Shown in pieces: positions 9,283 through 39,417 of a DNA stretch of 39,444 nt. A program made the position numbers and the translations under genes. The stretch is from Parvularia atlantis (lineage: Eukaryota; Opisthokonta; Rotosphaerida): contig CALSCO010001944.1 of assembly GCA_943704415.1 (NCBI GenBank), forward strand, positions 1 to 39,444, given 5' to 3'. Positions within the stretch are counted from its first letter, which is position 1. Every line of letters begins with the position of its first letter. The notes beneath the pieces are model-generated. The model saw only the letters and a program-made list of their open reading frames with translations. It made no database searches and was not told where the DNA came from.

Positions 9283-9583
9283 GGTGGTAAATGCGTGGTA
9301 CGGTGTCAGATCGATCGCGCTGACCGAGCCGCTTTCTCATTCTTCTTCGGTCGTCGTTGCTCTTTGCTCGTGGTGCTGCTGTCGCGCGCTGTCCACGTCG
9401 TCGTCGTCGTCGTGTGCTGCTTTCGTCGTTGTGTGACGCGCGCACGTGAACGTGGCGACGCAGCACGGCCGCGCGGCTGACGCGACAGCACGTGGCGCGA
9501 CGCCGCGCCGCTCACTTCTTTTCGCCGCGCCGCCGCGTGACACGCACCGCGCGCCCGCCCTCACAGCGCCCTAGAAGCAGCAC
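9283..9583. promoter_or_regulatory. Divergent promoter region between PLPP6-like and GAPN-like genes
   Basis: 301 bp separate two start codons on opposite strands. The stretch is CT/TCG-rich on the plus strand, with CGTCGTCGTCGTCGTCGTG-type tracts around 9388-9413. No tRNA-like fold or convincing small gene was seen. A CTGACC at about 9321 and CTGACGC at about 9477 could mark 5'-UTR introns, but I cannot place them. Confidence 0.45.
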
Positions 9584-11671
9584 ATGGCGCAGCAGGAGTT
9601 CAACGGCCTCTTCCTGAAGGAGCTGCCGGCGGACGCGCCGAAGCCCGTCGTGGTGTGCGGCCGTTCCCACGGCGTCCGCCTGCTGACCGCGGCGTCGACC
9701 AGAACGGCAACCGGTGGCTGCTCAACGGCGAGATCAAGGAGTGGACGGGCGAGCGCATCCCGATCTACTCGCCCGTGTACATGCAGGTGCGGCTGCCACT
9801 CGTTCTCGTTCGTGTCGTGTAATGACGACGAACGCGCCGGCAGGACGGCTCGCGCATCGTCCTGGGCGAGTACCCGATGATGACCGTGAAGGACTCGCTG
9901 GACGCGCTCGACTCGGCGCAGAAGGGTGCGCGGCGTCGCTCGTGCACGCGCACCCGATCGGGACGCTGAGCAGAATGCGGCAGCGTTCAACAAGGGCCTC
10001 GGCGTGTGGCCGCAGATGTCGGTCAAGCAGCGCATCCAGTGCGTCGAGAAGTTCCTCGAGGGCATGCGCACGCACCGCGACGAGATCGCCAACATCCTCA
10101 TGTGGGAGATCTGCAAGGTGCCGCACCCCGCCTGCGCGGCTGATCGCTCGCTCACCCGTGCCACGCAACGCAGAACAAGGCCGACGCGACCAAGGAGGTC
10201 GACCGCACGATCGACTACATCCGCGACACGATCCGCGAGCTCAAGCACCTCGAGAACGCCAGCGCCAGCTTCATCTCCGAGGGCGGCGTGCTCGCGCAGA
10301 TCCGCCGCGTGCCCATGGGCATCGTGCTCTGCCTCGGCCCGTTCAACTACCCGCTCAACGAGACCTACCAGACGCTCTTCCCGGCGCTGCTCATGGGCAA
10401 CTGCTGCATCCTCAAGACGCCGCGCACGGGCTGCCTGTGTCACGTGCCCACGCTGGAGCTCTTCCAGAAGTGCTTCCCGCCGGGCGTCGTCAACGTGATC
10501 CACGGCTCGGGCCGCAACACGCTCCCGCCGATAATGGAGAAGGTGCGTTCCGCGCACGCGCGCAGCCGGCACGTGCTCACGCCGGCAGCGCAGGGCGGCA
10601 TCGACGTCTTCGCCTTCATCGGCACGTCCAAGGCCGCCATCGAGCTGCAGAAGCTGCACCCGCACCCGAACCGCCTGCGCGTGTGCCTCGGCCTCGACGC
10701 CAAGAACCCCGCCTTTGTCACGGCGACGGCCGACCTCAACGTGGCCGTGACCGAGTGCGTCCTGGGCTCACTCTCGTTCAACGGCCAGCGCTGCACCGCG
10801 CTCAAGTGCATCTACGTCGACGCCAAGGTGCGCCCCGCTGCCGCGGCCGCCGCACGCCGCGCTGATCGCCGCACTGCGCAGATCGCCGACCAGTTTGTGG
10901 AGCAGTTCTGCAAGGCCGTGGACGCGCTCAAGATGGGCCTGCCGTGGGAAGCCGGCGTCGCCATCACGCCCCTGCCCGAGCCCGAGAAGCCGGCGTACCT
11001 CAAGTCGCTGATCGAGGACGCGCTCAGGTGCGCCGCGCGGGCGTGCGGGCGCAGACACGGTGCTGACGGACCACACAGCAAGGGAGCCAAGATCGTCAAC
11101 ACGCGCGGCGGCAAGCAGGACCGCACGTTCGTGGCGCCGACGGTGCTGTACCCGGTCACGAAGGACATGCGCTGCTGCGAGGAGGAGCAGTTTGGCCCGC
11201 TGATCCCGGTGCGCACTCCCGACGCACGTGCGGCGCCGCCGCTGACGGCGCACACACCCGCAGATCGTCCGCTACGAGACGCCCGACGAGGTCATCGACG
11301 CCGTCACAGGCTCGTCGTTCGGCCAGCAGGCGTCCGTGTTCAGCAAGGACCCGGCGACGGTCTCGCGCATGGTCGACTTCCTCGTGAACCAGGTCTCGCG
11401 CGTCAACATCAATGCGCAGTGCCAGCGCGGCCCGGACGTACTGCCCTTCACCGGGCGCAAGGTGCGCTTGTGCCGCGCGCTTGTGCCGCGCGCTCACTCT
11501 CGCTCCGCGCAGAACTCGGCCTGCGGCACGCTCTCGATCGCCGACGCGCTCCGCGTCTTCTCGATCCGCTCGGTCATGGCCACGAAGGACAGCAAGGCCA
11601 ACCAGGACCTGCTGACCGAGATCATGAGCGCCAAGTCGTCGCACTACCTGCGCACGGACTACCTTTTCTGA
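9584..11671 (+). CDS. Aldehyde dehydrogenase, GAPN-like (non-phosphorylating glyceraldehyde-3-phosphate dehydrogenase subfamily)
   Basis: About nine introns, mostly with GTGCG donors, split an ALDH of about 500 residues. Visible landmarks are RVPMGIVLCLGPFNYPLNET (cofactor-binding Pro-Phe-Asn-Tyr loop), LKTPRTGC, GSGRNT, the nucleophile loop LSFNGQRCTALK with the catalytic Cys, EEEQFGPLIPIVRYETPDE, and FTGRKNSACGTLSI. GAPN enzymes oxidise glyceraldehyde-3-phosphate to 3-phosphoglycerate, yielding NADPH in the cytosol. The LELGGK motif that supplies the general-base Glu in most ALDHs reads CLGLDAKNP here, so the usual Glu position is Gly; this may be a subfamily trait. The substrate is inferred from similarity to GAPN and remains uncertain. 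A TGTAA element lies 35 nt past the stop. It converges on selenophosphate synthetase. Confidence 0.8.
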
Positions 11672-11820: not shown

Positions 11821-11890
11821 GACGCATCAGAGAAGCACTCGGCCGGCGCCTGGCGTGCGGGCCCGGTTTGGTGAGTGTCTCGTCATGGTC
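11821..11890 (-). promoter_or_regulatory. Candidate SECIS element in the 3' UTR of the SelD gene
   Basis: On the minus strand, about 57 nt after the SelD stop, ATGA (11886-11883) opens a hairpin and TGAT (11829-11826) closes it, giving the UGA/GA core of a SECIS quartet. The helix includes GAGA:TCTC and CACTC:GAGTG pairs with a 2-nt bulge. Thirteen nt after ATGA comes AAA, as needed in the apical loop. Beyond it, CCGGGC and GCGCCGG can form a second mini-stem, as in form-2 SECIS. A short GAC:GTC pair continues below the core. The fold was done by eye. Confidence 0.6.
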
Positions 11891-11943: not shown

Positions 11944-13420
11944 CTAGACAATATGTGCAGGGTCGACCTCGACCACGCGGCAGTCAGGCGCGAGCTCGGC
12001 CGTACGGCTGCCTGAGCACACGCACTTTGTGAGCGGCGCCTGCCCGCAGTAAAGAGCACACGCGCACCGTTGACGACGTCGCCGACGATCCACGCGGGAC
12101 ACCCGTCCTGCTCGCGAATGGCCGACATAAACAGCTCGGCGTCCTCGCGCGTGAGCGCCACAAGCAGCCCGCCGGACGTCTCGGGGCCAAGGCCGTCGAG
12201 CAGCTTGAACGACGTGCGGCCGCAGATTGCGACGCAGCCGCGGAGCACGGGCAGCGTGTGGATCACGAACGAGACGGCGGTGCGCTGGTTCGACGCGAGG
12301 TTGCGCGCGTGGCCGAGGATGCCGAAGCCTGCGCTCGCGCGTGTCAGCTGCGAGCTCACGGCCTTGGTCCCGCGTTTGGCGCACCGGTCACGTCCGTGGC
12401 GGCGTGCGCGCCATGCGTGTGCATCAGCCTCGCCCCCGTCCGGTTCAGGCGCGCCATGCTGCGCTGCGCGGCAAAGTAGAGCGCGGTCACGTCGGCCTCG
12501 GTCACGACCTCAGCGATGCGGTGCCACTTGTCCGTCTGGCCACGCAGCCACTGGTGCGCGTTCACAGCGACCTGGCGATCGCGCGCTCAGCCAACGCAAA
12601 GGGCCTGCGCGACCGAGCGCGCCGCGCCTGCGTCCCGAGCGGCTTGGTGAGCACGATCACGTCGCCCGCGCGGGCGCCGACGGGCATAATGACGTCGGCC
12701 TGCGGGAGCACGGCCGTGGCTACGCCGCCGATGACGATCCACGGGTTGAGCACGGTCTGCCCGCCCGTGACGCCGCAGCCGGCCGCGCGCGCCGTGTCGC
12801 TGAAGCCGCGGATGAGCATGCGGCCGACGATCTGCGTTCGCTCGTCAGCGTGAGTCGCGGACGTCGCAAGCGGCGCGCCACCTGCTTCTCGTCCGCCGTG
12901 AGGTCCGTCGAGAGGCCGAGGAGCATGAGCACGTTGTCGCACTCGTGCACGCCCATCGCGTACAGGTCCGACAGCACGTTGGCGCAGGCGATGCGCCCCT
13001 GCTCGTACGGGTCGTCCACGTTTGGGTAGAAGAAGTCGGTCGTCTGCACGAGCACGACGCCGGGCACCTGCGCCACGCCATCGTCGTCGTCGTCGTCAGC
13101 AGCAGCAGCAGCAGCAGCCGCAGCAGCATTGAGGAGGCACGACGCACGCGCGTCGGCACGACCGCCGAGTCCATCCCGATGTTGCCGTGCGCCGCGCCCG
13201 CGATCCCGTCCAGCAGGGCGGCCAGCTCCTGCTGCGGGACCTGTGCCGTGCCGTGCCGTGCCGTGCCGTGCCGTGCCGTGCCGTACGTCAATCGCACAAT
13301 CGCACAATCGCGAACGCGCAGCAGCGCCACCTTGCAGGCTCAGCCCTTCAGCCGCGAGAAGTCGAGCAGGCGGAAGTCGGCGCGCAGCCCGTGCGCCGTG
13401 GGCGCGAACTCGTCCGCCAT
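11944..13420 (-). CDS. SEPHS2: Selenophosphate synthetase (SelD/SPS2) with selenocysteine at the active site
   Basis: Makes selenophosphate from selenide and ATP for selenocysteine synthesis. Seven exons (13420-13331, 13240-13148, 13067-12882, 12831-12628, 12571-12385, 12328-12068, 12011-11944) total 1089 nt and keep frame, giving 362 residues including Sec. The N-terminus reads [24 protein letters not shown], with UGA exactly where other SelD proteins have Sec or Cys, followed by the essential Lys three residues later. Further family blocks: [79 protein letters not shown] and GPETSGGLL. Intron 4 (12572-12627) is GC-AG. Intron 1 holds a GTGCC microsatellite and intron 2 a CTG/GAC one. A SECIS-like hairpin follows the stop. 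Reading the UGA as a true stop would leave only 26 codons before a perfectly conserved enzyme. Confidence 0.93.
12572..12627 (-). other. GC-AG intron 4 of SelD
   Basis: The 56-nt intron has donor CAG|GCGCGGCG, branch-like GGCTGAGCG and acceptor ATCGCCAG. The join gives [14 protein letters not shown], matching the animal SelD sequence KPLGTQVAV without a missing residue. No GT donor can restore this frame. Confidence 0.8.
13081..13128. repeat. GTC/CAG-type trinucleotide repeat in SelD intron 2
   Basis: TCG repeats run directly into AGC/CAG repeats on the plus strand. On the coding strand this is a CTG run followed by GACGAC, placed so that the run supplies the CTGAC branch-like site of the intron. 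Confidence 0.85.
13243..13282. repeat. (GTGCC)8 microsatellite in SelD intron 1
   Basis: Eight perfect GTGCC units on the plus strand. On the coding strand the GGCAC units end just 2 nt before the intron's acceptor CAG, so the array occupies the space where a branch site to acceptor spacer would be. Confidence 0.95.
13340..13342 (-). other. Selenocysteine UGA codon of SelD (Sec27)
   Basis: In-frame TGA in the context CTGAAGGGC-TGA-GCCTGCAAG (L K G U A C K). It is the catalytic position of SelD enzymes and is followed by seven conserved exons, so recoding to Sec is the natural reading. Confidence 0.92.
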
Positions 13421-14322: not shown

Positions 14323-14864
14323 GGCGCGCGCTCGCGGGTCGCGGAAGGCCTGGGCCGCCGCGTGCGCGTCCGTCGTGAGTCGCGTGCGTCGCATTTGTGC
14401 GTCGCTTGTGCGTCGCTCGTGCGTCCCCTCGGGCTCAAAAGCCGCAGAATCCCCCCCCNNNNNNNNNNNNNNNNNNNNNNNNNNNNNNNNNNNNNNNNNN
14501 NNNNNNNNNNNNNNNNNNNNNNNNNNNNNNNNNNNNNNNNNNNNNNCCCCCCCCCCCCCCCCCCACTGGACAGCAGCACCACGCGCAGCCCACGGCAACG
14601 ACGCGCGGCGCGCGCACGGCAAGCGGCACGAGAGGCGGGCACGAGGAGGAGAGGGCGACAGGCGGGCCGCATTCAGCCGAATCGAAGCAAACAGAGCGCT
14701 CCGGACGCTTCCAGAACGCTGCTCGAATGTCGATGCGAGGTGGCAGAAGGGCAGTGTGAGGCGCGGGCGTATGTAGTGACCGCGCGACGTCGCATTCGGC
14801 AGCGCCCGGCGGGTTCCGCAGGCCCGGCGACCGGGCGGCGCCGCGCCCGCCACGCGGCACGCGC
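14323..14864. promoter_or_regulatory. Divergent promoter region (G-gamma / ELP4) containing an assembly gap
   Basis: 542 bp between opposite starts, including the 88-nt gap. Left of the gap, GTGCGTCGCT-like units repeat imperfectly (about 14396-14425). Right of it the sequence is GC-rich without a clear TATA. I see no gene; anything inside the gap is unknown. Confidence 0.45.
14459..14546. other. Assembly gap (88 N) flanked by C homopolymers
   Basis: 88 Ns are preceded by eight C (14451-14458) and followed by eighteen C (14547-14564). The flanks suggest that sequencing failed in a long poly-C/poly-G tract, so the true length may differ from 88. Confidence 0.98.
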
Positions 14865-23813: not shown

Positions 23814-25237
23814 TCACAGCTTCGCCGCGGGCGCGGGCGTCTCGGTCGAGGCACGCTTGACGGCGAGGGGTCGCGGGACGGGGTCGGGCTTGATGCGGAT
23901 GAGGCCCTCCTGCGCGACCGAGACGACGAGGCGGCCGGCGCGGTTGTAGATGCGCCCAAAGGCGAGGCCGCGGTTGGCGATGAGGCGTGGGCTCTGTGCG
24001 CGGCGTCGTTGTGTGAGCGCTCGATTGCGGCAAGTGCAGGCACGGCACCTCGAGCTCGTAGAGCAGCCATTCGTCGGCGCGGAAGGGCTCGTGGAACCAC
24101 ATGGCGTGATCGAGACTTGCCCTGGGGCGCGCGCGCGCGCGCGCAGTGAGCGACAAGACGCGCGAGGTGCGCGAACGCACATGATCTGGATGCGCGGGTT
24201 CTGCGGGCCGCCGGGGATGCCGTGCGGGAGGAGCGGCGTGCTGAGGAGGCGATGGTCCGACGAGTAGGCGGCGACGCACTGGTGCAGGCGCAGGTCGTTG
24301 CCGAGCGTGCCGACGGCCTTCATCCAGATGAGCTGGCACGACAGAGGGTGCGCTGAGCTGTCTGCGTGCGCCGAGACGAGACGCGCACCTGCCGCGCGGG
24401 CTCGATCTTGCGCGCGACGCGCCAGTCGGTGTGGTCGACAGCGCGGATGTCGGTGACGACGGGCTGCGGCGCATGGCGATCAGCTGCCCGTCACGCGCAC
24501 GCGGCACCACGGCACCTCGTCGATCAGCTTCTGCAGCCACTCCTTGGCGCGCTCGGGGAACGACGGGTCGTCGATGTACGAGCGGTAGCGGTCGCTCTGG
24601 CTGGGGAGGGTCTCGGGGTCGGGCGCGTACGGCATCGGGTACTGCGCGCGCGCGCCCGTCGTCGTCGTCAGTCGTTGTTGGCGCGCGATTGATGCGAGGG
24701 CGCGCCTGATGCTCGACGCAGTACTCCTCGGGCACCTGGAACGACGCCTGGCACACGAAGATCTCCTTGCCGTTCTGCGTGGCGATGACGGTGCGCGTCG
24801 CGAAGCTGCGGCCTGCCGCCGCCGTGAGCGCCACGCGCGTGATTCGAGCGCCGCACCGTCGCGCGTGCGCCGCACGTGGTACAGGATCGGTACGTCCACG
24901 TCGCCCGGCAGGACAAAGTACGAGTGCAGCGAGTGCACGCTCATCGTCTGGACGGCCGTGCGCGCGGCCGCGGCCTGTTGCGCGCGCTCGTGTCGGCGAT
25001 GCGCGCGAGCGGGCGAGACGGACGACGCGCACCAGCGCCTGGCCCACGACCTGCCCGCCAAACACCGCGCGGCCGCCGATGGGCTTCCAGTGGTACCGCG
25101 TGAAGCTCCGGAACAGGTTGACGTCGATCTCTGCGCGGCGGCGGCGGCGGCGTGTGGGAGGCGCGCGCCCGTGCCCAACCGCGTGTCGCACCCTCGAGGT
25201 CGAGCGCGTGCTCGATCAGCGCCTTCTCGTGCGCCAT
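23814..25237 (-). CDS. Peroxisomal acyl-CoA thioesterase (ACOT8/TesB type II)
   Basis: The double-hotdog thioesterase aligns end to end with ACOT8: EEIDVNLFRSFTRYHWKP, FGGQVVGQAL, VHSLHSYFVLPGDVDVPI, RTRDGRSFATRTVIATQNGK, IFVCQASFQ, GNDLRLHQCVAAYSSDHRLL, ASLDHAMWFHEPFRADEWLL, FGRIYNRAGRLVVSVAQEGL. The three C-terminal residues AKL form a peroxisomal targeting signal (PTS1). It hydrolyses acyl-CoAs in peroxisomal lipid breakdown; catalysis uses the Asp in SLDH and partner Thr/Gln residues. Eight introns inferred, one GC-AG (24642-24705). The start at 25237 corresponds to the ACOT8 start region. Only 22 bp separate it from the stop of the DDX56-like gene upstream on the same strand. Confidence 0.92.
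24642..24705 (-). other. GC-AG intron in the ACOT8-like gene
   Basis: The 64-nt intron has donor CAG|GCGCGCCC, branch-like CGACTGACGAC and acceptor GCGCGCAG. The phase-0 join VEHQ-YPMPYAPD matches the ACOT8 QHQFSMP region. Confidence 0.7.
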
Positions 25238-34888: not shown

Positions 34889-37800
34889 TCACCCGTCCGC
34901 GTACCGCAGCTGGTACATGTCGCTGAGCACGCTGCCGCCGCTCGCCACGGCCGCGGCCATACTCGCGCCCGCGGTCGCGCCGGGCAAGGATGCGAGGACG
35001 ACGACGTCCTTGGTCGTGATCGTGCGCAGCCGCGCGGCCGCTCGCCCGGCCACCGGCGAGCCCACGCCTGGGCTCAGCGCGGACGAGGCGCGCGCGCGTG
35101 CGTCGGCGGCGGCCTGGCGCGATGGATGCCGCACAGACGCGTTCTGCGGCAGGCCCGTGCGTCAGCTGCACAGGACACGCTAGCACGCGGAAACGCACAT
35201 AGGTCAGCTGTGTCAACGACTGCAGCGCCTGCACGCGGCGCAGCAGCACAAGACGCTTGCCGATGCTCACAGGCAGCTCGTACGTCTTGACGCTGTCCTT
35301 GTCAAACAGCAGCAGCTGCGCCCCCGTGATGCCCTTCTCTGCGGCGGCCGTCAGCGATGTGCCATGCTCGGTGCCACATCACACTCACGCACCGCGACAC
35401 GCGTCCACGATCTCCTTCATGTCGATGTCGGCCAGCCACGCCGCAACATGGTCCACCGTCCACGTCGTCACATCAGCCGGGAGCCCGCGCTCAAGCGATG
35501 TCTTGGGGGTGCGCGTCAGGACGTCGCGCACGCACGTGCCAGGCAGGGCACGCGCCTTGCGCTGCGACGACACGTCCGGCGCGTCCCCCTCGGCCTCCGA
35601 CTGCTTACGACGCTGCGGCGCGCGTCAGACAGGCGCAGCGCAGCCAACACACCAAGCGCACCTCGGCCGCAATCAGCAGCTGCTTGAGCCACTCTGCCGC
35701 ATCCCCCTCGTCCGCCGCGGCAAGGAACATCCGGCGCCCGCCCGACATGATCGAGCTGCGACGGCTGCCTTCAGCCCGCACGGCCCGCTCAGCCCTCACG
35801 CAGCAGCGCGCACATGACGTTCTTGCGCCGCAGCGCTGTGCCGGTCTCGCGCACTTCGGCCAGGCGCAGCATGAGCGAGTCGATTGGGAGCATCTCCTGG
35901 CACGTGCTGCAGCGTCAGCCCAGTGCGGGACGCTCAAGCGCGCGCCCACGCACAAAGTCGTTCTTGAACACGAGCAGCGTGCTGCCCACGATCGCAAACA
36001 TGCGCCGCCGCCACGTGCGCGCGAGCAGCGGGCCCTCTGCGCCACACGAAGCTGTCAGCCGCAGACCGACCGCGACCACCACCCGCTGCGTACCGAGCCG
36101 GTGCAGGAAGCCGCGCAGGCGCTCGCCGGCCGCGCGCAGTCCGGCCGGGCTGCTCCCGGGCGAGTCGGTCGAGGGCGTAAGCTCGCGCCTGCTCAGGTCA
36201 CTCAGGCGCAGCTTCTGCACCAGGATCCCATCCGTCAGGCGCAACACCGACACACTTTCAGCGCCAAACAGCAGCACGAGGTGCGGGTACGCGTACACTG
36301 GCGGGCGACGCGGTCAGCGCACACGGCACAAAGCAGCGCAACAAGCGCACCGGTGCGCTTCGGCGGCTCCTCAAACGGCACTGGCGTGCGGCGCGACTTT
36401 TCAAACGTCTCAACGTCGAGAAACACGCCGACGTCTGTGCACGCCACGGGTGAGACGGTGCGCGCCGAGCAGCCGCAGCAGTGCGCACCGCTGAAGCACA
36501 CAAAGTACTCGTTCAGGTGCGCCAGGTGCACGACGTCGCAAGGGTACCGTCCGGGCTTCTCGGCCGAGCGGCACAGCTGCGCACACAACGTCAGAGCGAA
36601 AACACGCACGCCAGCGCGGCCGCACCTGCTCAACCTGCGACGTGTCCACGTCGAGCAGGTGGAACTCGGTCAGCTCGCGGAACGCGATGAGCACGGCGTC
36701 GTTGATGACTTTGAGCACGGTCGGCGGCGACGGGACGTAAAACTCCTGCGCGCGCGTTCACGTCAGTAACAGCGTGCACGCGCGGTGGGTGCGGCAGCGG
36801 TGCACCTTCTTCGGCACAAAGAGGAACGTGCCCTGCATGTCCATCTTCTCCAGCTCAAACATGTGCAGCGTCGTCGTGATGGCCGCGATCACGTACAGAC
36901 GCCGTCCGCGCCAGCCGTACGTAAACTCGTGGCAGCCCTTCGTGCCCGCAATCTTCTCGCCAAACCACTGGCCCTTGACGAGGTGGTACGCGACCAAGTG
37001 CGAGTTGCGCCCTGCGGCTCGCGCGGGTCAGCCACTCTGCACGCCGCCGCCGCGCACGGCCGGCGCACCGCAGAGCGCGAGCACGAGGTCGATCTCGTCG
37101 ATCACGCTGATTTTGTGGTAGATCTTGCGGCGCTCGAGCGGTGCCCACTCGAGCTTGCGCGGCAGAAGCGGTGAGTCGGCGCTGGTGTCCGGCACCGAGC
37201 CAGCCGTGAGCGCGCGCGACCGCTCGGCCACTGCAACGCGTGCCGTCAGCACCAGCGAGGCACTGCGAGGCGCGCCATAGCGCACCGCGCGGGCGCACGA
37301 ACGGCGTGTTTGGCAGGATCGCGAGGCCGTTGTCCGTGCCGAGAAAGATGTCCTTTGTGCCTGTGTGCAAACACGCGTACGTCAGACAGCGTCACGCAGG
37401 CAGCACGGTTCTGGCCGCGCACCGTACGTGTCACTGCAGCGCACGTCAAACAGCGCGTTCTCGTACAGCGCCTCCAGGCCGAGCGGTTGTGCGCGCAGGA
37501 TCTGCGTTGCGGCGCGACGTCAGCTGCTGCCATCACGCGCACAGCCGGCGCGCACGCACGTCGCCGGTGAGCCGCGCGAGCGGGCCGTGCGCCACGACCT
37601 CGGGCTCGCCAAACTGCACGCGGATGTCCTCGGCGATCGGGCGCAGGATAACGAGCGAGCCGTGCAACTCGAGCAGGTCCATGAAGCACGTTTTGGACGC
37701 GCCAACGAGCGTAATCTCCTCCTGCGGCGTCGCGTCCTGCTTGCGCAGCACCGATGGCGCAAACACGATCGCCAGGTTCTCGTTGCCCATCAGGTTCGTC

Positions 37801-39417
37801 TCGGCGAACGAGGCGACACACTGCGCGCCGCTCGGTGAGGCCGCCGCAGCGGACGCAGGCGGTGGCAGGGGCGCGCACCTTGAGGTACGACAGCAGCGTC
37901 GACAACAGCCACTGGTTCTCGGGCGGGAGCTGGATCAGCAGCGCATTGTACGCCTCCACCTTCTTGTCCTTCGGGAACGAGACTGCGGCGGGCAGCGGTT
38001 TCAGCGCGAGGCAGCCATGCGCAGTGCGCACGCAACGGATCGACAGGAACGACTGGAAGAGCGCGTACGGGATCAGCGGCTCGGGCAGCTCCTGCAGGAA
38101 CGCCTTGAGCACGCCCGCGACCGTGTGCGCCTCGCCTGACTCGAGGATGTGCACGGTCTCGTCTGTGGGCGCGCGTGAGCGTGAGTGCCGCTCGTGTCTC
38201 GCTGGCTGCGCGCGCTCACTCTTGTCAAACTGGTCCTTGATGCTCTTCATCGCGCTGCTGTTGCCGCTCTTGCGGAAGACGCCCTCGACCTCGTGGGCTG
38301 CGGCGCCGTCTCAGCGACAGCTGCCCGTGGTCAAAGCAGCGCGCCGCACACCGTTGTTGGCCAGCAGAAACTCGAGACACGTGTCGATCACGACCGGTAC
38401 CTGTGTCCCGTCGCGGTCCACGACGGCCGCCAGCGGCTGGCCAAACACGGGGCGCAGCGGCCGCATGTACGGCATTACCTCGAGCAGCCCCGGCGGCTTC
38501 TGGGCGAGGAACGGCGCGAGTGCGCGGATCTGGCCAGACGTCTGAGCGACCACACAGTGCCCGCAGCCGCCTCGCGCACGCGTACCCAAACGACGCGGTC
38601 GTGCCGGCTCGCGAAGGCCATCCAGTGCGTGACGGGCGGCTTGGTGATGACCGAGCGCTCTTTGGCGATGTCGTTGGCGCACCACTTCGATGGCAGCGCA
38701 CGCCGCACCGTCAAATGGCCGCAGATCGAGCCGGATCGAGAACGGCCGGGCCTCGTCGGCCTCGCTCGGCACCTCGATCAACGTGCCGGGCCTGTGGCGC
38801 GGGCGTCAGCCGTGTACCGCGAGTACACACCGCGTCCGAGGCGCACCACGGTACAGAGATGACGTCGTCCGAGCGCACGTGCACGTCGCGGCGATCGGTC
38901 ACGTGCAGCCCGTCGTGTCGCAGCTCTGGCGTCGTGGTCTGTTTGTGAGCGGACGTGCATGCAGATCGCATCGGGTCGCGCACCGGCGTACGCGAGCACC
39001 CACTGCCCGGGCTTGGCGTGCGCCGGGTCGCCGTTGAGGAACGCGACCCAGCTGCCCAGCAGCACGCCGAGGCGCTCGAGGCCCGGCACGATCTGCACAC
39101 GGCCGTCTCAGCGCCGCTGTGCGTCGATGCGCAACCGCGCGCGTACGCACCGCCTTGTCGCGCAGCCGCTCCCAGTGCGCCCCGGGTGCCACGCCCGCGC
39201 CCGTGCTCTGCATCGTCCCGCTCGTCCCGAGCCCGCCGCCGCTGCCGCCGAGCCCGCCGAGCCCGCTGCCGCCGCCGCTGCCGGCGCTGGCGAGGACGGG
39301 CGAGGCCGTGCCGGATGAGGGCGCGCCGAGGCCGCTGAGGGCGAGCGCGCCGGGGCTGGCGGGCGATGTGCGCGCAGCAGTGCCACCGGGCGGCGAGGTG
39401 GCGCGCGCCGTGGCCAT
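34889..39417 (-). CDS. PH-RhoGAP-CNH-PH-SAM Rho-GTPase regulator
   Basis: Starts with a Gly/Ser/Ala-rich stretch (Met 39417; it may begin further right). A PH-like domain follows (LGVLLGSWVAFLNGD, LHVTDRRDVHV, TLIEVPSEADEARPFSIRL, HWMAFASRHDRVVWI). The RhoGAP domain is VFGQPLAAVVDRDG, VPVVIDTCLEFLLANNAHEV, EGVFRKSGN (arginine finger), VAGVLKAFLQELPEPLIPY, PPENQWLLSTLLSYLK and NLMGNENLAIVFAPSVLR. The CNH domain includes GTKDIFLGTDNGLAILPN, IDLVLALCGRNSHLVAYHL, LKVINDAVLIAFRELTEF, NEYFVCFSDVGVFLDVETFE, YAYPHLVLLFGAESVSVL and TDGILVQKL. A second PH domain (LEGPLLARTWRRRMFAIVG...AAEWLKQLL) and a SAM domain (WTVDHVAAWLADIDMKEIVD, KGITGAQLLLFDKDSVKTYE) finish the protein. It should switch off Rho/Rac-type GTPases at membranes. 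About 19 introns. Confidence 0.88.

Follow-up and report, generated by a model that had tools for sequence, protein, structure and literature searches.

The window analysed here, a 39,444-nt stretch of the Parvularia atlantis assembly, carries a SelD/SPS2 gene on its minus strand (nt 13420-11944). The gene consists of seven exons specifying 362 residues and has an in-frame TGA as codon 27 (Table 1). Twenty-six residues precede this codon, the surrounding frame reads ...DFSRLKG-TGA-ACK and continues as ACKVPQQEL..., so that a Lys lies three residues after the Sec position, and translation ends at a TAG (nt 11946-11944). A preliminary description of this DNA had reported L-K-G-UGA-A-C-K in minus-strand exon 1, followed by six further exons with 362 residues in frame, and the gene model agrees with it on all of these points as well as in the end coordinates. 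The UGA-containing SelD reading frame is confirmed as real. The best database match is a EukProt transcript ORF, Unigene4476_Nuclearia_a (hereafter P0001), which is identical to residues 53-362; introns 2 to 6 (five of the six), including the GC-AG intron, are therefore supported. Exon 1 and intron 1 lie outside the coverage of P0001, and their limits rest on homology. According to PMC6299283, P. atlantis was formerly known as Nuclearia sp. ATCC50694, and PMC9492541 describes its genome as derived from metagenomic data of cultures. Introns 4, 5 and 6 are each 56 nt long, and intron 1 (nt 13241-13330, minus strand) contains, by eye, a short array of CACGG-type pentanucleotide repeats. The gene upstream of SelD (about nt 14200-14035, minus strand) specifies a Cys-containing tail that, judged by eye, resembles that of a Rab/Ras-type small GTPase. 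The window also holds a run of 88 N (nt 14459-14546), possibly an assembly gap.

Table 1. Features of the SelD gene of P. atlantis and its 3' flank, in window coordinates.
Feature	Position (nt)	Strand	Basis
Exon 1, ATG to ..LKG-UGA-ACK	13331..13420	-	Frame and SEPHS1 homology; outside transcript ORF P0001
In-frame TGA, codon 27, predicted Sec at catalytic position	13340..13342	-	Alignment with SPS proteins (Sec/Cys/Thr site)
Exon 2	13148..13240	-	Intron 2 donor (13147) set by P0001; exon 1 junction from homology only
Exon 3	12882..13067	-	Gene model and P0001 alignment
Exon 4	12628..12831	-	Gene model and P0001 alignment
Intron 4, GC-AG type, 56 nt	12572..12627	-	Joined reading agrees with P0001
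Exon 5	12385..12571	-	Gene model and P0001 alignment
Exon 6	12068..12328	-	Gene model and P0001 alignment
Exon 7, ends in TAG	11944..12011	-	C-terminus identical to P0001
Putative type II SECIS, 3' UTR	11821..11890	-	By anatomy; 57 nt past TAG

The identity of the protein was assessed by comparison with human SEPHS1 and the NCBIfam selD model TIGR00476, in both cases using a 358-residue version of the gene model (with another intron 2 donor) in which Cys replaced Sec. Human SEPHS1 (3fd5) was matched with an E-value of 1.7e-113 (phmmer), the alignment spanning residues 3-354 and extending on both sides of the UGA, and TIGR00476, which has a cut-off of 125 bits, returned 237 bits. Scores to the narrower selD models NF010705 and NF002098 were under their cut-offs. 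In the 362-residue model, both AIRS domains were recovered above the Pfam cut-off (PF00586, 51.8 bits; PF02769, 65.6 bits). Of the 7997 candidates scored in a protein search with SelD, 7989 had E<=0.001; among the best 120 of the 7997, the best named SPS matches after P0001 came from a sponge, a mite and an oomycete. That SPS2 is itself a selenoprotein is textbook knowledge, and like eukaryotic SPS2/SEPHS2 proteins the P. atlantis protein combines AIRS and AIRS_C domains with a catalytic Sec position and a Lys three residues later, in the one gene detected. It differs from the known eukaryotic SPS2 proteins in lineage, being that of a nucleariid, and in the residues that follow the Sec position, which are Ala-Cys-Lys as against Gly-Cys-Lys in three of four relatives reaching the site (the fourth has a gap there). 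Human SEPHS1 has Thr where the P. atlantis gene has UGA, but otherwise aligns over nearly the whole length. The homology to SPS proteins is continuous through the UGA, which lies at the known Sec/Cys position named in the preliminary description, with Lys three residues later (LKG-U-ACK). These comparisons support the assignment of the gene as a eukaryotic selenophosphate synthetase (SPS2/SelD) with a predicted Sec at its active site.

The genome assembly (616 contigs, 16,251,876 bases) was searched for further SelD genes and for components of the Sec pathway. The AIRS search yielded three matches, distributed over two loci, namely the SelD gene itself and a locus on contig C138 that, by motif, we take to be PurM, and for this reason no second SelD is counted as detected; the Cys-encoding second copy that had been considered as an alternative did not appear. 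The tRNA-Sec search produced 13 matches, of which a single one exceeded the cut-off (74.1 bits), and ARAGORN labelled it tRNA-SeC with anticodon tca. SepSecS gave six matches on two contigs, the best on C208 (E 3.0e-40) and further exons on C422. The fourth domain specific to eEFSec (eEFSec_4th) was found as two exons on C132 (E 4.6e-13 and 1.1e-7) and in none of 14 prokaryote control genomes. SBP2 is represented on C582 by three collinear pieces that are weak when taken singly (E 0.007, 0.05 and 1.6); after removal of an assumed intron, the joined piece matched the SBP2 of 7zjw with an E-value of 1.2e-25. An L7Ae search of the assembly returned six matches at four loci, which we read as RPS12, RPL7a, Snu13 and RPP38; on the features of these proteins, the four loci were set aside as SBP2 candidates. 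The working Sec pathway proposed in the preliminary description therefore has its tRNA-Sec, SepSecS, eEFSec and SBP2 genes in the same assembly. Its PSTK fared less well: the genome search found a kinase on C339 (E 5.5e-5) whose open frame matches TIGR03575 with an E-value of 1.3e-11, but the score of this frame, 44.3 bits, lies so far under the curated cut-off of that model (382.35) that the protein is named here only 'PSTK-like'. The genome accordingly encodes the Sec machinery, PSTK less surely than the rest.

Two further observations concern SBP2. Residues 1-140 found no match at E<=0.001 among 824 candidates of the protein collection, and the L7Ae end (C582, about nt 37340-38270, plus strand) is followed, in frame and free of stops, by repeats of the ankyrin type (Ank_2 of Pfam, 68.7 bits). 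In the part of the literature searched, SBP2, ankyrin and selenoprotein co-occurred in one paper, the available text of which is about tick-borne disease.

The 3' flank of SelD holds a candidate SECIS that was absent from the preliminary description. The gene converges with a plus-strand gene whose TGA stop lies at nt 11669-11671 and whose C-terminal residues look to us like those of an aldehyde dehydrogenase. Within the 272 nt between this stop and the SelD TAG, the minus strand reads AUGA(C)-GAGACACUC-ACC-AAA-CCGGGCC...GGC(G)CCGG-CC-GAGUG(CU)UCUC-UGAU. The core consists of AUGA (nt 11886-11883) and the quartet UGAC/UGAU (nt 11829-11826), which is flush with an upper stem of 9 bp that includes a 2-nt bulge. 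The AAA (nt 11869-11867) follows 13 nt after AUGA, the ministem comprises 7 bp, a bulge of 1 nt and a loop of 9 nt, and the basal helix is short. Type II SECIS parts such as are present in the candidate are described in PMC11227280, which also states that nearly all eukaryotic selD SECIS are of type II; the type II model given there, made for archaea, has a ministem loop of 2-6 nt as against 9 nt in the candidate.

How often such an arrangement arises by chance was estimated in several ways. A text pattern for the SECIS core matched the whole genome 161 times (79 forward, 82 reverse), and the same pattern read backwards 36 times. Scoring of core plus upper stem covered 68 sites, these being the 100 listed of the 161 matches minus 32 on two AT-rich contigs (14 on C3 and 18 on C242); the window's candidate, which was outside the 100, was added by hand. 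The candidate scored 21 and the next best 18 among the 68 other sites scored from the matches listed. The frames at the next four best-scoring sites were read by eye, and no UGA-bearing selenoprotein was recognised. C3 and C242, AT-rich against the GC-rich window, carry clustered tRNA genes and are possibly mitochondrial. Among random sequences with a fixed core, 299 of 20000 reached the stem score of the candidate, and a Markov simulation gave 13 comparable sites per 1.2 million bases, or 0.003 per 272 nt. Two other sites in the window, both on the plus strand, score as high or higher (nt 9433, score 21; nt 24785, score 23), and taking them as background gives about 0.007 per 272 nt. A background of 55 partly overlapping GC-rich loci (331,838 strand bases) held one such place, shared by two overlapping loci, or about 0.001. 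A comparable core and stem would thus be expected by chance about 0.001-0.007 times in 272 nt, figures that serve as a guide only, since the scoring was chosen after the candidate had been seen.

The candidate could nevertheless be a chance resemblance, with a genuine Sec-containing SPS2 whose UGA is recoded by another RNA structure, as for most fungal selenoproteins, which are reported to be without a consensus SECIS. In keeping with this reading, Rfam SECIS_1 had no match across the window, the 3' region or the whole assembly, and the 106 nt that were folded show no excess stability over shuffled sequences (z -0.42; 65 of 200 shuffles were at least as stable). In its plain SECIS shape the candidate folds at -20.1 kcal/mol, while the minimum is -25.4 and a fold with the SECIS stems forced comes to -25.3; both the minimum-energy and the forced fold add pairs in the quartet, and the minimum uses another ministem. 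The two plus-strand sites of equal or higher score point in the same direction. What makes this reading unlikely is that the core, the AAA spacing, the upper stem and the ministem occur together, at the expected place, within 272 nt, and that the chance figures for core and stem are low. We regard nt 11890-11821 as a putative type II SECIS that probably belongs to SelD.

The start of P0001 bears on a second alternative, in which translation would begin at Met53, the UGA would be the plain stop of a short upstream frame and the product would lack the catalytic loop. P0001 is called from Met53 and leaves exon 1 uncovered, but Met53 is merely the first Met after the UGA and is where a caller taking UGA as a stop would begin. 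The alignment to SEPHS1 already begins at residue 3, ahead of Met53, and the Sec machinery has been retained, so that a Met53 start is highly improbable. A sequencing or assembly error at a true Cys codon (TGC/TGT) is hardly credible, for although the assembly is a draft, P0001 likewise has no sequence upstream of Met53, perhaps only through truncation, and the Sec machinery is present. The preliminary description had foreseen that automatic gene callers would truncate the gene or start it after the UGA, and P0001, which begins after the catalytic residue, is such a case: a concrete mis-annotation in which the public transcript ORF of SelD lacks its active-site position. Two relatives of SelD, P0058 from Polychytrium aggregatum and P0006 from an environmental source, have a start Met that coincides with that of P0001 or follows it closely; on the strength of these positions they may also be Sec-containing SPS2 genes truncated by gene callers.

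We are highly confident that the only selenophosphate synthetase detected in this organism is an SPS2 that uses Sec27 and that its own UGA is recoded, probably through the putative type II SECIS in the 3' UTR. By what is established for such proteins, the enzyme would use Sec27 to turn selenide into selenophosphate in an ATP-dependent reaction. While SelD is being translated, the SECIS would be bound by SBP2, which would recruit eEFSec carrying Sec-tRNA-Sec. The latter would be made by SerRS, PSTK and SepSecS, and SepSecS would use the selenophosphate that SelD itself makes.

Beside SelD, the GPx, Rdx and TrxR families were surveyed for selenoproteins. Both GPx loci found in the assembly carry Cys. 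The Rdx family (SelT/W/H) gave no match at E<=0.001, and a lone weak match (E 0.38) did not have the look of a selenoprotein. The TrxR-like search returned six matches on two contigs, of which we take C129 to be a glutathione reductase and C224 a dihydrolipoyl dehydrogenase. A C129 match flagged with four TGA seems, by eye, to hold an intron and the stop. The presumed glutathione reductase ends ..AAEEFVTMR-TGA, and for this reason UGA appears to be a normal stop as well. That the Sec pathway has been kept almost solely for SelD, as a nearly self-serving loop with a canonical SECIS just outside Fungi, is a distinctly doubtful proposition.

The work of Mariotti et al. from 2019 is said to have found that most selenoproteins of Sec-using early-branching fungi are without a consensus SECIS, and it may have covered nucleariids. 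P. atlantis is like these fungi in having kept the Sec machinery within Holomycota, but differs in its candidate for a canonical type II SECIS, an element that most fungal selenoproteins are reported to lack. In the part of the literature searched, no paper was found for Parvularia with selenocysteine, or for nucleariid with either selenoprotein or SECIS. PMC4561486 reports no bona fide SPS2 in fungi among the 284 genomes searched then, and PMC10778597 puts the Sec-using fungal species at nine. Harpellales share SelenoH, according to PMC12611240, whereas the P. atlantis assembly lacks an Rdx match at the threshold given above.

The gene described here is an ordinary SPS2 with Sec, and its novelty is modest and lies in the lineage. 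The nucleariids are the sister group of Fungi, and the results point to a Sec pathway among them whose SelD has a SECIS that is likely to be of canonical type II. If this is true, the loss of the consensus SECIS reported for most fungal selenoproteins would fall after the split between Fungi and nucleariids, and this placement becomes testable.
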